A stretch of 64,000 bases of DNA, from NCBI GenBank assembly GCA_022708105.1, contig JAKIZI010000006.1:1-64000 (forward strand), read 5' to 3'. Below, one piece after another: positions 51,061 to 58,103 of this stretch. Every line of letters begins with the position of its first letter. Position 1 is the first letter of the stretch. The position numbers were made by a program, and so were the translations under genes. The notes under the pieces were generated by a model. The model was given only the letters and a program-made list of their open reading frames with translations. It was not told the origin of the DNA and did no database searches. Origin of the DNA: Bacteroidota bacterium (GTDB taxonomy: Bacteria > Bacteroidota > Bacteroidia > Bacteroidales > WCHB1-69).

Positions 51061-52176
51061 CTATTTCAAGGTCATTGTAACCATAACCTTTCCGTCGGAA
51101 AGAGTTTCCTCTAATTGTTCGGTAATTCCCGATAAGATGATTCTGCTAAGGCCGTCTGTTTCTTCCACCGGATTGAGAATTGTCCCGAGGGCTTCGTCTG
51201 CCGCAAACGAGAGCGATATGGCACGTGTTTGTTCCGCAAACGACAACATAATTTCAATACCTCCATGATCCCGAATAATGCGGTTTCTCTCGGCTGCATT
51301 GCCCTCCACAAAACACAACTGTAAAGTCTCTTCCACCGCCAGATTGAGATTGTTTATCTCCTTCGGTCCAAAAAAATGTTTATTGGCGAAATTTTCGATG
51401 CCGGCACGTAAATCATAAAAATCATACAGATTATCGGCAATATGATAACTAAAATTGCGAATTCTTCGAATAAACGAGATGGTCTTTTCTTTTTGAGGAT
51501 GATCAAAAATCTGCTCCGGTGTTCCTTCTTCATAGATGATTCCCTCATCCATATACAACACCCGCGTAGAGACATCACGGGCAAATTTCATCTCATGAGT
51601 TACAATGGCCATAGTCATCCCGTTGGAAGCCAATCGTCTGATTACGCCCAGTACTTCACTCACCATTGTGGGATCTAATGCCGAGGTAGGTTCATCAAAG
51701 AGAATAATTTCCGGTTCCATCGAAAGACAACGGGCAATGGCCACTCGCTGCTGCTGACCTCCGGAAAGCTCATCCGGAAAAGCATCTTCCTTAGCAGCCA
51801 GGCCCACCAATTGTAACAACTCGCGCGCTTTCGCCACTGCCTCTTTTTTGTCCTTATTTAATAACTTAATCGGACCAATCGTCAGATTGTCGATTACCGA
51901 CAAATGCTCAAACAAATTGAAGTTCTGAAAAACCATTCCCATCTTTTGTCGCAAGTGATTCAAATCGTTCTTGGTGTCCATAATGTCCACCTCATCGATA
52001 AAAATCTTTCCTCCGGAGGGTTTTTCCAAAAGATTAAGACAACGCAGAAAAGTACTTTTTCCTGTGCCCGAAGGACCAATAATGGAGATAATTTCCCCTT
52101 TTTTAATTTCTATATTAATCTCTTTTAGTACCGTTAACTCTCCAAATTTTTTTGAGAGTTGTTCAACCTTTATCAT
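51061..52176 (-). CDS. Polar amino acid ABC transporter ATPase with C-terminal RsbW-like pseudo-kinase domain
   Basis: A 371-residue protein. Residues 1-240 are a complete GlnQ/HisP-type ATPase: Walker [10 protein letters not shown] (34-42), Q-loop Gln84, signature LSGGQ (137-141), Walker B IILFDEP (157-163) and switch His194. Family members normally end near residue 245; here about 130 extra residues follow. That extension contains [13 protein letters not shown], which lines up with KLNLALEEAVSNV of the kinase domain in the neighbouring SpoIIE protein. Leu287 replaces the Mg-ATP Asn, and the DxG and GGLG boxes are not kept. It probably keeps the fold without kinase activity. It is the last gene of the five-gene operon. 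Confidence 0.9.
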
Positions 52177-52197
52177 GCGTCATTTCTTTTTAATCGG

Positions 52198-54447
52198 TTA
52201 TTTTGTTCTTTTTGCACGTTTGGGAGCTGTCCGTAGTTGAATGCGCTCAATCAGGTAGGTAAGCAACCATGCCAATAAAAAATAGATAATGGCAATCATG
52301 ATTAACGGAAAAAACGCATCAAATGTACGGCTTCGTATGATATCACCCGCCTTAGTCAAATCCTGCACCGCAATGTAGCCTACAATGGCCGTCATCTTGA
52401 CCAATGCAATAAATTCGCCTTTGTACACGGGCAATACGCGCTGCACCGCCTGAGGAAGAATTATATTCAGGAATGTTTTCACTTTACTGAAACCCATAGC
52501 AATTCCGGCTTCCCACTGCCCCCGCCCGATGCTCTCAATCGAGCTTCGGAACATCTCGGAAACATAAGCCGCAAAATTCAAAGCAAATGTGATCACAGCA
52601 ACCCCTAATCCGCTGATATTTAAAGGCGAAAGAATAACATAAAACATCAGCATCAACAAGACAACCTGCGGAATTCCCCGCAACAAGTCGATATATATTT
52701 TCGCAATAAGTTGCAATCCCTTGGAGCGGCTCATTCTCATCATACATACAATCCCTCCCAGAAAAGTTCCCAACAAGGCGGCAAATAAAGATATGAGAAA
52801 AGTCACCTTCAACCCCGACCACAACAATAAATAGCGTTTTTCCAGAATAATATTGTTATAAAAACTCTCTTTGGTCCGCTCAATAAATGATTTGGAGTTC
52901 GCTTGCATTTGATTGTCATTCTTGTAAGTAACCAACACCTGAGGATTAACGAAATAGCCGTCGGAGAAGTTGACCACTTTTCGCCGTTCTTCGGTAGCCG
53001 TCATATTTGAAATGACCAGATCGGCTTTACCTGATTCGAGTGCCGCAATAAGCGCAGAGAATTTCATATCGTAATACTGTACCGGTCGTCCCAATTTATA
53101 GGCAATTCTCTCTATTAGCTCACAGTCCAGACCGACGATAGTATTATTCGAAATAAAACACATCGGTTCACGATTGGCAGCAATGGCAACCACAAGAGGT
53201 TTTCCTGAAGTTACTTTAGGAATCTCCGTTAACTCATACGCAGACCCATCAGGTCGTACCCACCGCTTGATAATGGAATCTAAAGTCCCATCCTGTTTAA
53301 ACTCCGCCAACACCTTATTGACCTCATCCAATAGTGCCGTTTGATTTTTAGAAAATGCAATTGCCGCATATTCATCCGTAAATTCTTTCGGCAGCACCAC
53401 CAAATCTTTATTCTTATTAGCAACCTTCAGGGCTGTTGTATATGCCGTAATGACATAATCCAATTTGTGGGCTTGCAGCGAGGCAACGGCATCCATAATA
53501 TCATCAAAACATTGAACCGTAGCCTTGGGAAAATGTTCCCTGATGTACATCTCTCCGGTAGTTCCGGTCATCGCTCCCACCACCGCATGAGATAAATCAT
53601 TCCCATTCCGGGGATTATCTTCTTTTTTTGTGACAACGAATTCTTTCTTTTTATGCTTTTCCACTCCGTAATCCTTGATAACAGCTGCAATGCCGCCATG
53701 ATAATAAGGCTCTGTAAACAAAACACTTTTTGCCCGTTCTTCGGTAATCGTCATACACGCGCCAATGATATCCACTTTTGCTGAGAGCAAAGAAGATATC
53801 AGGGCTCCGAAATCCATATTCACGACTTCCAATTTTTTCCCCAATGCTTGAGCCAACAAGGCGGCAAATTCGACATCAAACCCGACAATTTCTCTCTTTT
53901 CGTCAAAAAATGAAAAAGGCTCTGTGAGGGCACTGGTTCCGAAAGTCAACACGCCATTGGTTCCATCCAAGATTATTTCCGGCATGGGCGCGGGTTTTCC
54001 CTTGGTAGGGAACCATCTTTTCATCATATCGTCATATCGCCCGTCGGAACGTAATGCCGCCAACAAAGAATCGGCCACCCGTTTCAGTAAAACATCATCC
54101 GGTCGAACAGCCATTCCGTAGCTATCTTCGGTAATCAGCTCCGGCAAAAGTTTCAATCCCGGATTCTTGGCCATGATATTTTTTAGAATGGGTTCATCGT
54201 AAGCCGCGGCCTTTTCGATGCCTTTTTGGACTGCGATACAAGCATCCAGTGGTGAATTGTAATAGACACACTCCGCCTCGGGAAGTTTTTGCCATACCAA
54301 TTGGTCGGCAATCGTTCCGGTAACAACTGCAATCCTTGCTTGCTTCAATTCTTCTAAATCAGTTACTTCTTCAATCTTTGTTTTATTACAAGAAATAAGA
54401 AGAATAGAAAATATGCAAACGGATAAAAAAAGAGTTATTTTTCTCAT
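52198..54447 (-). CDS. Lipoprotein fusion: four SBP_bac_3 lobes plus amino acid ABC permease
   Basis: A 749-residue protein. A lipobox (LLISC, Cys20) follows a short leader. Periplasmic segments resemble half-domains of family 3 solute-binding proteins in the order lobe II (about 25-146), lobe I (165-257), lobe II (283-397), lobe I (416-508). Lobe I landmarks are IVGFDVEFAALLAQALGK and IVGLDCELIERIAYKLGR, each followed by MTITEER or MTATEER. Residues about 540-735 are a HisM/GlnP-type permease with EAGIAMGFSKVKTFLNIILP as the ATPase-docking loop. The ATPase gene follows by 21 bases. The ATG overlaps the STAS stop (ATGA). Confidence 0.88.
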   Translation of the reverse strand: MRKITLFLSVCIFSILLISCNKTKIEEVTDLEELKQARIAVVTGTIADQLVWQKLPEAECVYYNSPLDACIAVQKGIEKAAAYDEPILKNIMAKNPGLKLLPELITEDSYGMAVRPDDVLLKRVADSLLAALRSDGRYDDMMKRWFPTKGKPAPMPEIILDGTNGVLTFGTSALTEPFSFFDEKREIVGFDVEFAALLAQALGKKLEVVNMDFGALISSLLSAKVDIIGACMTITEERAKSVLFTEPYYHGGIAAVIKDYGVEKHKKKEFVVTKKEDNPRNGNDLSHAVVGAMTGTTGEMYIREHFPKATVQCFDDIMDAVASLQAHKLDYVITAYTTALKVANKNKDLVVLPKEFTDEYAAIAFSKNQTALLDEVNKVLAEFKQDGTLDSIIKRWVRPDGSAYELTEIPKVTSGKPLVVAIAANREPMCFISNNTIVGLDCELIERIAYKLGRPVQYYDMKFSALIAALESGKADLVISNMTATEERRKVVNFSDGYFVNPQVLVTYKNDNQMQANSKSFIERTKESFYNNIILEKRYLLLWSGLKVTFLISLFAALLGTFLGGIVCMMRMSRSKGLQLIAKIYIDLLRGIPQVVLLMLMFYVILSPLNISGLGVAVITFALNFAAYVSEMFRSSIESIGRGQWEAGIAMGFSKVKTFLNIILPQAVQRVLPVYKGEFIALVKMTAIVGYIAVQDLTKAGDIIRSRTFDAFFPLIMIAIIYFLLAWLLTYLIERIQLRTAPKRAKRTK

Positions 54448-54758
54448 ACATTTGATTGTTCAAAAGTAAAAAGCGATGAAAATCCGGTCATATCGAAAAT
54501 GCTCTTGATTTCAGCACTCATATCTCGAATAGATAATTTCCCCCCTTTTGCCAATGCACTTTTTTGCAACACCAAAAAAAGACGCAATCCAGAACTGCTG
54601 ATATAGGTAAAATCGGCGCAATCCAAAATCACATGTTGCATAGTACCCTCCAATATCGGGGCAATAGCCTTTTCAAATTCTCCTGCCGTAGCGGTATCCA
54701 ATCGACCTGCAATTTTCACTAAAGTACATCCTTCAATAATTTCAATCTTAACTTCCAT
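54444..54758 (-). CDS. STAS-domain phospho-switch protein (anti-sigma-factor antagonist-like)
   Basis: A 104-residue SpoIIAA/RsbV-like protein. The regulatory loop is TYISSSGLRLFL, with Ser55 at the SpoIIAA phosphoserine position. It lies 28 bases after the SpoIIE phosphatase-kinase gene and overlaps the permease fusion by 4 bases. In known systems unphosphorylated STAS proteins bind RsbW-type kinases and free a sigma factor; here no sigma factor is encoded nearby and the next two genes are a transporter. A paralogue lies at 42455-42760. Confidence 0.94.
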   Translation of the reverse strand: MEVKIEIIEGCTLVKIAGRLDTATAGEFEKAIAPILEGTMQHVILDCADFTYISSSGLRLFLVLQKSALAKGGKLSIRDMSAEIKSIFDMTGFSSLFTFEQSNV

Positions 54759-54786
54759 AATTGTTTTAATTTAATCGTATTTTAAT

Positions 54787-57126
54787 TTAGATTTTCTTTT
54801 TCATCGTAAAAATATTAATATCATGAATTCGGCTATAAGTAACCTCATTCATAATCTGTTTGATCAAATAGATGCCTAACCCACCTATAGGACGTTCTTC
54901 TGCAGATAATTCCAAATTTGGGTTTTCCGAGAGTGTAGGATCAAACGGGATTCCGGAGTCCGTAACTGTAAAGATTAAATCGCTCCCTTTCAGCGAAACA
55001 GAAACAACGATTTTTTTTCCGGGTTCTTTGGGATAGGCATACAAGATCACATTGGAAACGGCTTCCTCCAAGGCTAAATTCAATTTCAGAACCAATGCAT
55101 CTTCCAATCCCAAGTCATGTCCTACCCCTTCGATAAATTCGTACAGTATCGGAATTTGTTGAATTTCATTAATTAAGGTAATGCTTTTTTCATATTTTTC
55201 TTGGCCCCCCACAAAAGTAATGGCCAACATGGTCATATCGTCCGATTGGGGAGCATGGGCAACATGATGCGTCACATCTTCGAGTACCCCTTCAATCAAC
55301 AATTGGGGCGTAGCAAACTCTTTTTCGGAGAGAAACGCAAGTAATCGTTCTTCTCCGTATAAAACCTGTTCGCCGTTTTCTGCTTCCGTTATGCCGTCTG
55401 TATAGAGAAATAATGTACTGCCCGCATTGAGTTGATAGGATTGTTGTTTAAATTCAAAATCCTCATATAAACCAAGCGGCAAATTGGGAATAACCGAAAA
55501 ATAGGAACTTGTTTTCTCGATTAATAAGGGAGGATTATGTCCTGCATTACAATATTCGAGCATGCCTGTCCGTAAATCCAACAACCCTAAGAAAAGGGTT
55601 ACAAACATATTTGATTCATTATTTTCCGACAACGACCGATTAAGTCCGGCCATAATTTCGGCAGCTGTATTATAATGCAAGGAAACGGTTCGAAACAAAC
55701 TACGGGTTACGGCCATGAGTAGAGATGCCGGAATTCCCTTTCCGGAAACATCTCCAATAATAAAATACAATTTTTCTTCATGAATAAAATAATCGTACAA
55801 ATCTCCGCCGACCTCTTTTGCCGGGATAAGTACCGCAAATTGTTCAATCTCTTTTCTTGAAGGAAACGGGGGGAACGTTTTGGGAATCATCCCCATCTGA
55901 ATTTCCCGTGCAATTCTTAATTCACTTTCTATTTTTTCTTTGGCACTTGTTGTATCTTTTAATGTTTGAATATAATGGACTAAATTATGTTGCATATATT
56001 CAAAAGCATCGTGTAACTCCCGCATTTCATCTTGAGTATGAATATCGGGCAAGATAATATTAAAATTTCCTTTGGCTACATCTCGTGCCGAAGTCGCAAA
56101 ATGATGCAACGGCGATAACTGGCGGGTAATAATTCTGGCAATAATAACTGTCAATAATCCCAATCCAATGATGATGACAATGAGTAAAATAATGGAAATC
56201 GAACGCAATGGCAAATACATTTCCGATTTGGGAAACAGAACGGCCAATGTCCAATTGCTCGAAGGTAACGGGGCATAATACATTACACGCTCAATTCCGT
56301 CCAACGTACTGCTCACGAAACCACTTTTGTTACGTTGCATATCCCGACCGATTTCTCTCAATTCTGGGTTATTTTTTTCTTTGGCATAACTAAAAATGGT
56401 TTGATTCATTATCAACTCCTTATTCGGGTGCGTCACAAAAGTACCGTTGCGCGAAAGTACCGATGCATAGCCTGTTTCTAGTATTTTTAACGAAGAAACC
56501 ATCTCCGTAAAGCGGTCTAAAGGCAAATCCATGGTCAATATGGCAACGATTATTTCTTTCCCGTTAGAATCCAAATATACCGGAACCGAATAGGTCGTCA
56601 TTAATGCATTTCCGCCCCCCTCATCATAATAGGGTTCTGACCAATATGGCTGCTGAATGCTCATGGGAATCTGGTACCAATCCATGACAAAATACTCATA
56701 ATTCTCATTTCCCAATTGAATGCTCCGAATAGAATCCCCATCCCGATAGGAATAGGGCGAAAAATAAAGTCCTTTGTCTTTAAAATAGTTCGGGGTAAAA
56801 GCAATTGCCGAGCCAATAATCTCCGGATTCTGTGCAACAATTTGACGCGTCAGGTCCATAAAGGTGTCCGGATGATTAATCATTCTGGTTATCATCCATT
56901 TATAATTGTCTGCAATCTTCATAATCGGCGCCAATATAGCTTCCGTTTGCATCACGGTATTTTCGGTCAATATCTCGGCATTTCGATAGGTCATCTCTTC
57001 TATCCGGTGTTTCGAAAAGAAATAGAACCCTGACAACGACAACACAAATAATAAAATACAAAGGGTCAAGACATAAGTAACAATTCTTGCCGATAATGAT
57101 TGCTTAAATTTATTCACAATACTCAT
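54787..57126 (-). CDS. Membrane Cache-HAMP-SpoIIE phosphatase with C-terminal RsbW-type kinase domain
   Basis: A 779-residue bifunctional sensor. TM1 (about 15-37) and TM2 (about 309-331) bound a periplasmic double-Cache sensor (about 40-305). HAMP (about 330-385) and a coiled segment lead to the SpoIIE/PP2C domain (about 410-640): GGDLYDYF, GDVSGKGIPASLL, TDGITEA and QSDDMT supply the metal-binding Asp residues. Residues about 650-779 are a GHKL kinase domain with an intact N box (Glu687, Glu688, Asn692), DSG (723-725) and GGLGIYL (748-754). It should both dephosphorylate and phosphorylate a STAS partner, encoded next. Its start overlaps the upstream binding-protein stop by 4 bases. Confidence 0.95.
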   Translation of the reverse strand: MSIVNKFKQSLSARIVTYVLTLCILLFVLSLSGFYFFSKHRIEEMTYRNAEILTENTVMQTEAILAPIMKIADNYKWMITRMINHPDTFMDLTRQIVAQNPEIIGSAIAFTPNYFKDKGLYFSPYSYRDGDSIRSIQLGNENYEYFVMDWYQIPMSIQQPYWSEPYYDEGGGNALMTTYSVPVYLDSNGKEIIVAILTMDLPLDRFTEMVSSLKILETGYASVLSRNGTFVTHPNKELIMNQTIFSYAKEKNNPELREIGRDMQRNKSGFVSSTLDGIERVMYYAPLPSSNWTLAVLFPKSEMYLPLRSISIILLIVIIIGLGLLTVIIARIITRQLSPLHHFATSARDVAKGNFNIILPDIHTQDEMRELHDAFEYMQHNLVHYIQTLKDTTSAKEKIESELRIAREIQMGMIPKTFPPFPSRKEIEQFAVLIPAKEVGGDLYDYFIHEEKLYFIIGDVSGKGIPASLLMAVTRSLFRTVSLHYNTAAEIMAGLNRSLSENNESNMFVTLFLGLLDLRTGMLEYCNAGHNPPLLIEKTSSYFSVIPNLPLGLYEDFEFKQQSYQLNAGSTLFLYTDGITEAENGEQVLYGEERLLAFLSEKEFATPQLLIEGVLEDVTHHVAHAPQSDDMTMLAITFVGGQEKYEKSITLINEIQQIPILYEFIEGVGHDLGLEDALVLKLNLALEEAVSNVILYAYPKEPGKKIVVSVSLKGSDLIFTVTDSGIPFDPTLSENPNLELSAEERPIGGLGIYLIKQIMNEVTYSRIHDINIFTMKKKI

Positions 57127-58103
57127 TGGTCATCGTTTTTGAATGATAATACGGGTTTAAAAAATTCGGAATAGGGCGTTATTGATTTCAAAAAGCCATT
57201 GGACAACAACTTTTTTGCAGCTTTTTCGTAAGTTATTTCCGATAAATAACCTTTATTACCTTTTTCCAAAGGAGGTTTCATTAATTCCAATACTTTTTCC
57301 AACATCCACTGCTGATGAGCATAATTCGTAGGAATATGATTTTTTTTCATCACTTCCAAAACAATTTCTATCGTTTCTTCCGGGTGGGTTTCTGCATATT
57401 CCCAACCCTTAAGAGAGGCTTCCGCAAACTTGCGAAGATCTTGTTTTCTCGTATTATAGGTATTTTTTAAACAATAGAGTCCATCTTCGGGCATGTTACA
57501 TCCGTGACGTGAAAAGAAAAAAGTGTTGAGTTCTTCGGAATTATACCCTGCATTAATAATCTGATCATATTCATTGTACCACATAACCGTCATGGCATCC
57601 ACTCCATCAAGCATAAACATATTGATTGATGAAAGAATGGGCACCCATGTAACCTTTATATTAAGAGAATTTACCAACGACTTGGGAATTTCATCGAATC
57701 CACTCTTCCAAATACCAATTTTCTTTCCACTAAGTTCTTGAATCGTTTTAATATTTTTAGATTTCTTAGTTACAAAAAGCAGGGCTGAATTTTGGGACAT
57801 CTGGGCAATATTAACCATTTCGGCTCCGTTTCCAACGGTCGTCATGGCAGTTACCAAAAATAGGGAAATTACATCCACTTTTCCGCTCAACAGACTTTCA
57901 GTGGGCATTATTGAAGCCGAAGGATGAACTATTTTAACCTTAATTCCGGCTTCTTCATAAAATCCTTTTTCTTGTGCCACATAATAACCTGCAAATTGTG
58001 CTTGCGGTAACCAATGGGGCATAAAAACCACCTCCGGCATCTGGGCAGATAAGGAGCCACAGCTAAATAAAATGACGAAGAGACGCACTATTCTGCTTGT
58101 CAT
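57123..58103 (-). CDS. Periplasmic NMT1/SsuA-like substrate-binding protein
   Basis: A 326-residue exported protein with a signal peptide (about 1-20, ending SLSAQ). The pattern FMPHWLPQAQFAGYYVAQEKGFYEEAGIKVKI and GKVDVISLFLV belong to the NMT1/THI5 and nitrate/sulfonate/taurine binding-protein family. No cognate SsuBC/TauBC permease or ATPase of that family is present, and no TPP riboswitch precedes the gene, so thiamine-precursor transport is not supported. It is translationally coupled to the Cache-SpoIIE gene, suggesting it delivers a ligand signal to that sensor. It opens the operon. Confidence 0.9.
   Translation of the reverse strand: MTSRIVRLFVILFSCGSLSAQMPEVVFMPHWLPQAQFAGYYVAQEKGFYEEAGIKVKIVHPSASIMPTESLLSGKVDVISLFLVTAMTTVGNGAEMVNIAQMSQNSALLFVTKKSKNIKTIQELSGKKIGIWKSGFDEIPKSLVNSLNIKVTWVPILSSINMFMLDGVDAMTVMWYNEYDQIINAGYNSEELNTFFFSRHGCNMPEDGLYCLKNTYNTRKQDLRKFAEASLKGWEYAETHPEETIEIVLEVMKKNHIPTNYAHQQWMLEKVLELMKPPLEKGNKGYLSEITYEKAAKKLLSNGFLKSITPYSEFFKPVLSFKNDDQ

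Follow-up and report, generated by a model that had tools for sequence, protein, structure and literature searches.

A single gene in a Bacteroidota bacterium of the order Bacteroidales poses a question of topology: in a protein whose binding lobes read II-I-II-I ahead of a permease, when the rule of family 3 is lobe I and then lobe II, which lobes pair to form a receptor, and how many receptors does the chain hold? The gene lies at 52198-54447 on the minus strand of the window, by which we mean the whole stretch of 64,000 nucleotides analysed (contig JAKIZI010000006.1, assembly GCA_022708105.1), and is a single intact open frame encoding 749 amino acids (P0001). We provide evidence that the lobes form two complete, tandem, circularly permuted family 3 receptors, II1-I2 and II3-I4, and that neither outer lobe is a remnant. 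P0001 is very probably the membrane subunit of an amino-acid-type (PAAT-like) ABC importer that carries both of them. The features of the gene and its neighbors are collected in Table 1.

Table 1. Features of the receptor-permease gene and of the adjoining genes, in window coordinates
Feature	Position	Strand	Support
ABC ATPase with a C-terminal degenerate RsbW-like GHKL domain of about 133 aa (51064-51462)	51061..52176	-	Pfam, NCBIfam, hhalign
Permease domain, BPD_transp_1, amino-acid type (P0001 527-733)	52249..52869	-	PF00528, TIGR01726, own model 334 bits
Lobe I, receptor 2 (P0001 418-506)	52930..53196	-	Lobe I model 102 bits
II-to-I linker, receptor 2, 20 aa	53197..53256	-	Linker-length survey
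Lobe II, receptor 2 (P0001 286-397)	53257..53592	-	Lobe II model 116 bits
Flexible connector, receptor 1 to receptor 2, at the hinge position of a canonical receptor	53593..53679	-	pLDDT <50, variable length
Lobe I, receptor 1 (P0001 167-256), ending at the canonical hinge position	53680..53949	-	Lobe I model 115 bits
II-to-I linker, receptor 1, 20 aa	53950..54009	-	Gap lengths, MP motif; ordered in model
Lobe II, receptor 1 (P0001 34-146)	54010..54348	-	Lobe II model 126 bits; pLDDT mostly >90
Lipoprotein signal peptide and lipobox (...ILLISC20; LISC, Cys20)	54388..54447	-	Translation, eye, simple pattern scan
STAS, anti-sigma-antagonist-like protein	54444..54758	-	PF01740, TIGR00377 over cut-off
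dCache-HAMP-SpoIIE phosphatase-HATPase_c_2 sensor protein	54787..57126	-	Pfam
NMT1/THI5-like binding protein	57123..58103	-	Pfam

Profile libraries readily recognize the parts of P0001. Five Pfam families match it, PF10613 among them, with SBP_bac_3 (PF00497) at 2.9e-65 and 218.4 bits against a cut-off of 26.4 and BPD_transp_1 (PF00528) at 1.4e-18; NCBIfam TIGR01096 matches three separate stretches, and the permease is of the HEQRo or amino-acid type (TIGR01726, 64.1 bits against a cut-off of 42.2). Lobe models seeded from P0001 itself and iterated over the 1,409 ORFs that the fetched loci contain returned the order II-I-II-I-permease at 102-126 bits per lobe, far beyond chance, with each unit reading II-I, the reverse of the family order. 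The order that an earlier note had read from the sequence is therefore real and intact by Pfam, NCBIfam, the lobe models, and homologues, and its claims of a lipid anchor (a lipoprotein signal whose lipobox at Cys20 was found by eye and by pattern scan) and of fusion to the channel (permease at 527-733, 334 bits, TIGR01726) hold as well. L028, a full-length homologue with 73% identity, has the same lobe order and no frameshift, and the complete chromosome of Candidatus Formimonas warabiya (NZ_CP017634) encodes an 812-aa protein in the order of P0001, which shows that the layout is not an assembly artefact. The best single SBP_bac_3 stretch that Pfam finds, 167-397 (window 53257-53949, minus strand), runs from lobe I2 to lobe II3; the library thus takes a tandem permuted protein for one canonical receptor and hides the permutation. 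That same stretch favors a different reading of the protein, in which I2-II3 is a canonical receptor and the outer II1 and I4 pair across the chain, an arrangement that is topologically possible.

Homologues help to choose between these pairings. Matches were found in 18 of 60 relative genomes and include a four-lobe relative 45% identical to P0001, II-I-permease proteins of about 500 aa, and single-chain proteins of roughly 880-980 aa with the layout permease, TM helix, II, I, TM helix, ABC ATPase, tail (TM helices by eye). The single-chain importers at L020, L021, L022, and L023 lie in four genomes that belong to the same family as the window. A scan of genome contigs gave 70 loci, 68 of them with at least one II-I arrangement; because the loci were found with patterns taken from permuted proteins, they give no estimate of how frequent permutation is within family 3. 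By record title, which may be wrong for metagenome bins, the permuted loci fall in eleven phyla (Bacteroidota, Chlorobiota, Pseudomonadota, Bacillota, Thermodesulfobacteriota, Spirochaetota, Ignavibacteriota, Myxococcota, Lentisphaerota, Acidobacteriota, and Fidelibacterota), with two loci unplaced.

With copies removed, 104 distinct ORFs carried lobe matches. Stand-alone II-I proteins, which stop 3-8 residues past lobe I, account for 48/104, and permease fusions with one (II-I-T), two ((II-I)2-T), three ((II-I)3-T), and four ((II-I)4-T) units for 9, 14, 14, and 3, respectively. The order T-II-I occurs in four ORFs, II-I-II-I without a permease in one, and II-I-II-T in one, and the remaining 10 comprise 7 I-II, 1 II-II, 1 II-T, and 1 II; six of the seven "canonical" I-II ORFs are only distantly related, and their I-to-II gaps are long (55-128 aa). 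A Lentisphaeria bin holds a II-I-II-I protein of 532 aa with no permease (L094:5237-6832). In a ten-genome check, several genomes had canonical I-II receptors alongside permuted ones. With canonical relatives so close at hand, the progression from free receptors to fusions of one, two, three, and four units opens the evolution and use of circular permutation in importers to direct tests. In a close relative, the locus L029:3173-10125 is the same operon as window 51061-58103 (64% in the best segment) with three receptor units rather than two, which indicates that unit number changes fast. A plasmid search with the stand-alone II-I module gave no match at 1e-20, and a viral structure search gave weak, poorly fitting matches only.

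A lone II-I protein permits only one intramolecular pairing, and unit 1 of P0001 is 57% identical to one such protein, the stand-alone Chlorobium II-I lipoprotein P0006 (119 bits on PF00497), over residues 13-265 of 266; unit 2 is 31% identical to it. The gap from lobe II to lobe I is 20 aa with a standard deviation of 1.2 (n = 146), lies between 18 and 24 aa in 146/146 linkers, and carries an MP motif in 113 of them. The gap from lobe I to lobe II in permuted proteins is 21 aa with a standard deviation of 4.8 and a range of 16-36 (n = 53 junctions), and that of the clear canonical receptor L095 is 12 aa. Lobe alignments were built without the II-II, II-T, II, and II-I-II-T ORFs (4/104), and tree correlations also without L094. 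In the 14 two-unit proteins, lobe trees correlate within units at r = 0.914 and 0.938, at 0.435 across the equally close I2-II3 junction, and at 0.364 for the outer pair; leave-one-out gives a within minimum of 0.896, an across maximum of 0.503, and an outer maximum of 0.468. The 14 three-unit proteins give 0.934, 0.879, and 0.912 within units, 0.652 and 0.764 across junctions, and 0.411 for the outer pair, and their leave-one-out across maximum (0.865) exceeds the within-unit minimum (0.84), so that the contrast is clean only in the two-unit proteins. What these correlations identify are units of inheritance, from which we infer the units of folding.

Predicted structure points to the same pairs. 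An AlphaFold2 model was computed from 51 multi-unit rows; stand-alone rows were excluded and so cannot have biased it. Its pLDDT is 90.6, falling under 50 only at 244-259, which is the I2-II3 connector (P0001 264-279), and at 494-500, the C-terminal tail, and its pTM of 0.55 is what would be expected of two units with no defined position relative to each other. A single-sequence AlphaFold run of P0001 reached a pLDDT of 36.4 and was set aside. With pairing judged from alignment ranges and pLDDT, model 12-243 (unit 1) and model 258-494 (unit 2) each fit bilobed PDB proteins at 3.2-4.3 Å, the best bilobed fit for unit 1 being OpuAC (4.1 Å, 204 residues, Z 12.3); unit 2 fits 4ote at 3.5 Å over 176 residues. 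The I2-II3 stretch (model 141-339) superposes on canonical receptors at about 14-16 Å rmsd, and on the canonical arginine-binding protein at 16 Å, where single lobes fit at 1.2-2.7 Å. When the permuted profile was set against PDB receptors, its two halves matched in swapped order; among the 60 PDB sequences listed of 467 matched, no single receptor was collinear with it, and the only collinear matches were the tandem proteins 6h30 and 4q0c. P0006 is itself collinear with 6h30 only via lobe II of SBD1 bridged to lobe I of SBD2.

These data support the earlier note's count of two receptors per subunit, with II1-I2 and II3-I4 as the pairs; in the structural check that it proposed, each of these contiguous pairs fitted bilobed proteins. 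A canonical I2-II3 core enclosed by an II1-I4 pair is highly improbable, given an outer correlation far under that of same-unit pairs, a connector that is disordered and variable in length precisely where such a core would need a hinge crossing, the poor superposition of I2-II3 on a canonical receptor, and the existence of free single-unit II-I proteins.

The conservation of binding residues bears on whether both receptors work. We take the roles of the carboxylate-binding Arg, the alpha-amino-site Asp, and the GT/GS motif to be those of glutamine-binding protein. On this assumption, the Arg (in the ITEER motif) is kept in 145/145 permuted lobes I, and the Gly of GT/GS and the Asp are kept in 143/145 and 110/145 permuted lobes II. 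The Asp is distributed unevenly by class of unit: 44/48 stand-alone, 26/32 first, 15/20 middle, and 22/32 last units keep it, as do 2/9 single fused units and 1/4 single-chain forms. Unit 1 of P0001 keeps Arg, Gly-Thr, and Asp, and unit 2 keeps Arg and Gly-Thr and has Ala at the alpha-amino Asp position, so unit 2 may bind another ligand or bind weakly. Judged from these residues, the ligands are most likely amino acids or their analogues, with the last unit diverged.

Circular permutations are generally attributed to duplication followed by loss of the ends, and this, together with the missing Asp of unit 2, could be taken to mean that the first lobe II and the last lobe I are what is left of a triple receptor that broke up, with only I2-II3 functional. 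We consider such decay highly improbable as well. The four lobes are conserved across phyla with the ligand Arg invariant, both outer lobes are ordered in the model, and stand-alone II-I proteins exist. The remnants that the earlier note had offered as an alternative are thus disfavored: all four lobes are predicted to be folded, and the homologue alignment that it proposed shows ligand residues mostly kept in both sites, the exception in P0001 being the Asp-to-Ala change of unit 2. P0001 is better read as carrying two whole permuted receptors.

The importer GlnPQ has a separate ATPase, as in the window operon. Its Lactococcus lactis form fuses a tandem of receptors, SBD1-SBD2, to the permease (PMC8025302), and that tandem (6h30) is the top Foldseek match. 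GlnPQ and P0001 are alike in setting two tandem family 3 receptors on an amino-acid-type permease and differ in that the GlnPQ receptors are canonical I-II, whereas the units of P0001 are II-I, follow a lipoprotein signal, and vary in copy number from 1 to 4 among relatives. Natural permutation is known from other bilobed receptors. TpMglB-2 (Tp0684) of Treponema pallidum, of "Type Ic / Cluster Bc," is a lipid-anchored natural circular permutation shown to bind ligand and change shape (PMC4990184). Its fold, however, is a sugar-binding one of Type I with the cut placed within a lobe, it is not of family 3, and the passages of PMC4990184 describe no tandem copies or permease fusion; none of the five Pfam families that match P0001 is a Type I sugar-binding family. 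The glycine-betaine binding proteins OpuAC and ProX are likewise related by circular permutation (PMC2395249, CPSARST). OpuAC, although the best bilobed fit to unit 1, is of another ligand class and family, and its family, PF04069, is absent from the same five matches.

Permuted binding proteins in other families and fused tandem receptors are thus known already (PMC4990184, PMC2395249, PMC8025302). In the literature searched, mainly listings with passages of PMC4990184, PMC2395249, PMC2861598, and PMC8025302, we found no natural circular permutation of family 3, and in the same listings no family 3 permuted module, tandem fusions of it, or single-chain importers. P0001 belongs to a family of amino-acid-type receptors with swapped halves, spread over eleven phyla by record title, that a profile library takes for canonical.

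The cut that produced the permutation lies where the chain first crosses the hinge, and the conserved 20-residue proline-rich linker connects what were once the N and C termini. In the receptor tree, unit 1 of P0001 falls among free-standing receptors, so that P0001 looks as if a once free receptor had been joined to a receptor-permease. The stand-alone II-I proteins L089 and L091-L093, from gut Bacillota and Spirochaetota, group with the canonical L095, and a constraint uniting all permuted rows is not rejected (p-AU 0.194 over 57 rows, kept of 68 after 11 long or divergent ones were dropped). A second, independent permutation in the L089, L091-L093 group is possible on this topology. The receptors of that group stand next to ATPases without a tail, among them the short ones of L089, L092, and L093.

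In the importer that we propose, each unit would close on an amino-acid-like ligand and dock on the permease, a permease homodimer would bring four receptors to each transporter, and the adjacent ATPase would hydrolyze ATP to drive uptake. The lipid at the N terminus would anchor the receptors, whose C terminus is joined to the permease, and both attachments would exit at the hinge. In fusions of canonical receptors the ends exit from lobe I. Ionotropic glutamate receptors, to which the PF10613 match of P0001 points, join their membrane part to the same fold at the same hinge (lobe I end, lobe II start); they differ in holding an ion channel between the lobes and in being no ABC importer, and the relation is compared at the binding fold only.

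That likeness invites a bolder proposal, in which the permutation is a coupling device that would let lobe closure act directly on the membrane part. Both receptor ends would have moved to the hinge, where glutamate-receptor channels join their pore, and the single-chain form, gated by a STAS partner switch, would be the extreme case, with receptor, pore, and motor in one chain (permease-TM-II-I-TM-ATPase-RsbW-like tail). The 20-39 residues that separate lobe I from the permease model and the low-confidence tail of the (truncated) model argue against stiff coupling, and we regard the proposal as doubtful.

The neighboring genes suggest how such an importer could be regulated. The stop codon of the upstream STAS gene overlaps the start codon of the receptor-permease gene, and the adjoining ATPase is GlnQ-like over residues 1-239 (NF007027, E 1.5e-88, 296.2 bits and so under the equivalog cut-off of 379). 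Its tail resembles RsbW-like domains (hhalign 98.0%, E 1.6e-13, 105 columns), and HATPase_c_2 is found in 14 of 27 members, a similarity of RsbW/SpoIIAB type. N47, D78, and G80 are invariant in the HATPase comparison set A5; the ATP-binding N-box Asn and DxG Asp are absent by eye at the aligned places of the tail set A3. A tail of at least 110 aa occurs in 52 of the 60 ATPase ORFs examined, one of the 52 (L050) being an unrelated ATPase, and the eight tail-less ORFs divide into truncated or incomplete (L023, L026, L047), unrelated (L031), and short ones (L072, L089, L092, L093). The tail type at window 51064-51462 (minus strand) is common to most permuted-receptor importers found.

More tentatively than for the receptor assignment, it is reasonable to suggest a partner switch in which the STAS protein would act on the importer by way of the RsbW-like tail of the ATPase. 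More broadly, single-chain importers and the ATPase tail suggest that partner-switch signaling and nutrient uptake are linked. The literature searched, mainly listings, yielded no description of that link and no ABC importer under the control of a STAS/RsbW switch, and a term search in PMC12667903 gave no match. The gene order with STAS, dCache-SpoIIE-HATPase, and NMT1 genes, together with the tail, could mean instead that the permuted receptors fold as described in a protein that is mainly a sensor feeding the STAS/SpoIIE module and not an importer. This is unlikely, since the permease and ATPase match importer models and since in 53/68 permuted loci the fetched flanks, several of which are short, show no gene of the STAS, phosphatase, HATPase, or NMT1 kinds. 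STAS, SpoIIE-phosphatase, or HATPase genes occur in the flanks of the other 15/68, and five of these 15 have NMT1, STAS, SpoIIE-phosphatase, and HATPase together. As an importer operon, window 51061-58103 (minus strand) is a possible case of a partner switch acting on uptake, and its STAS protein carries an ISSSGL motif, found by eye, around the likely phospho-Ser.
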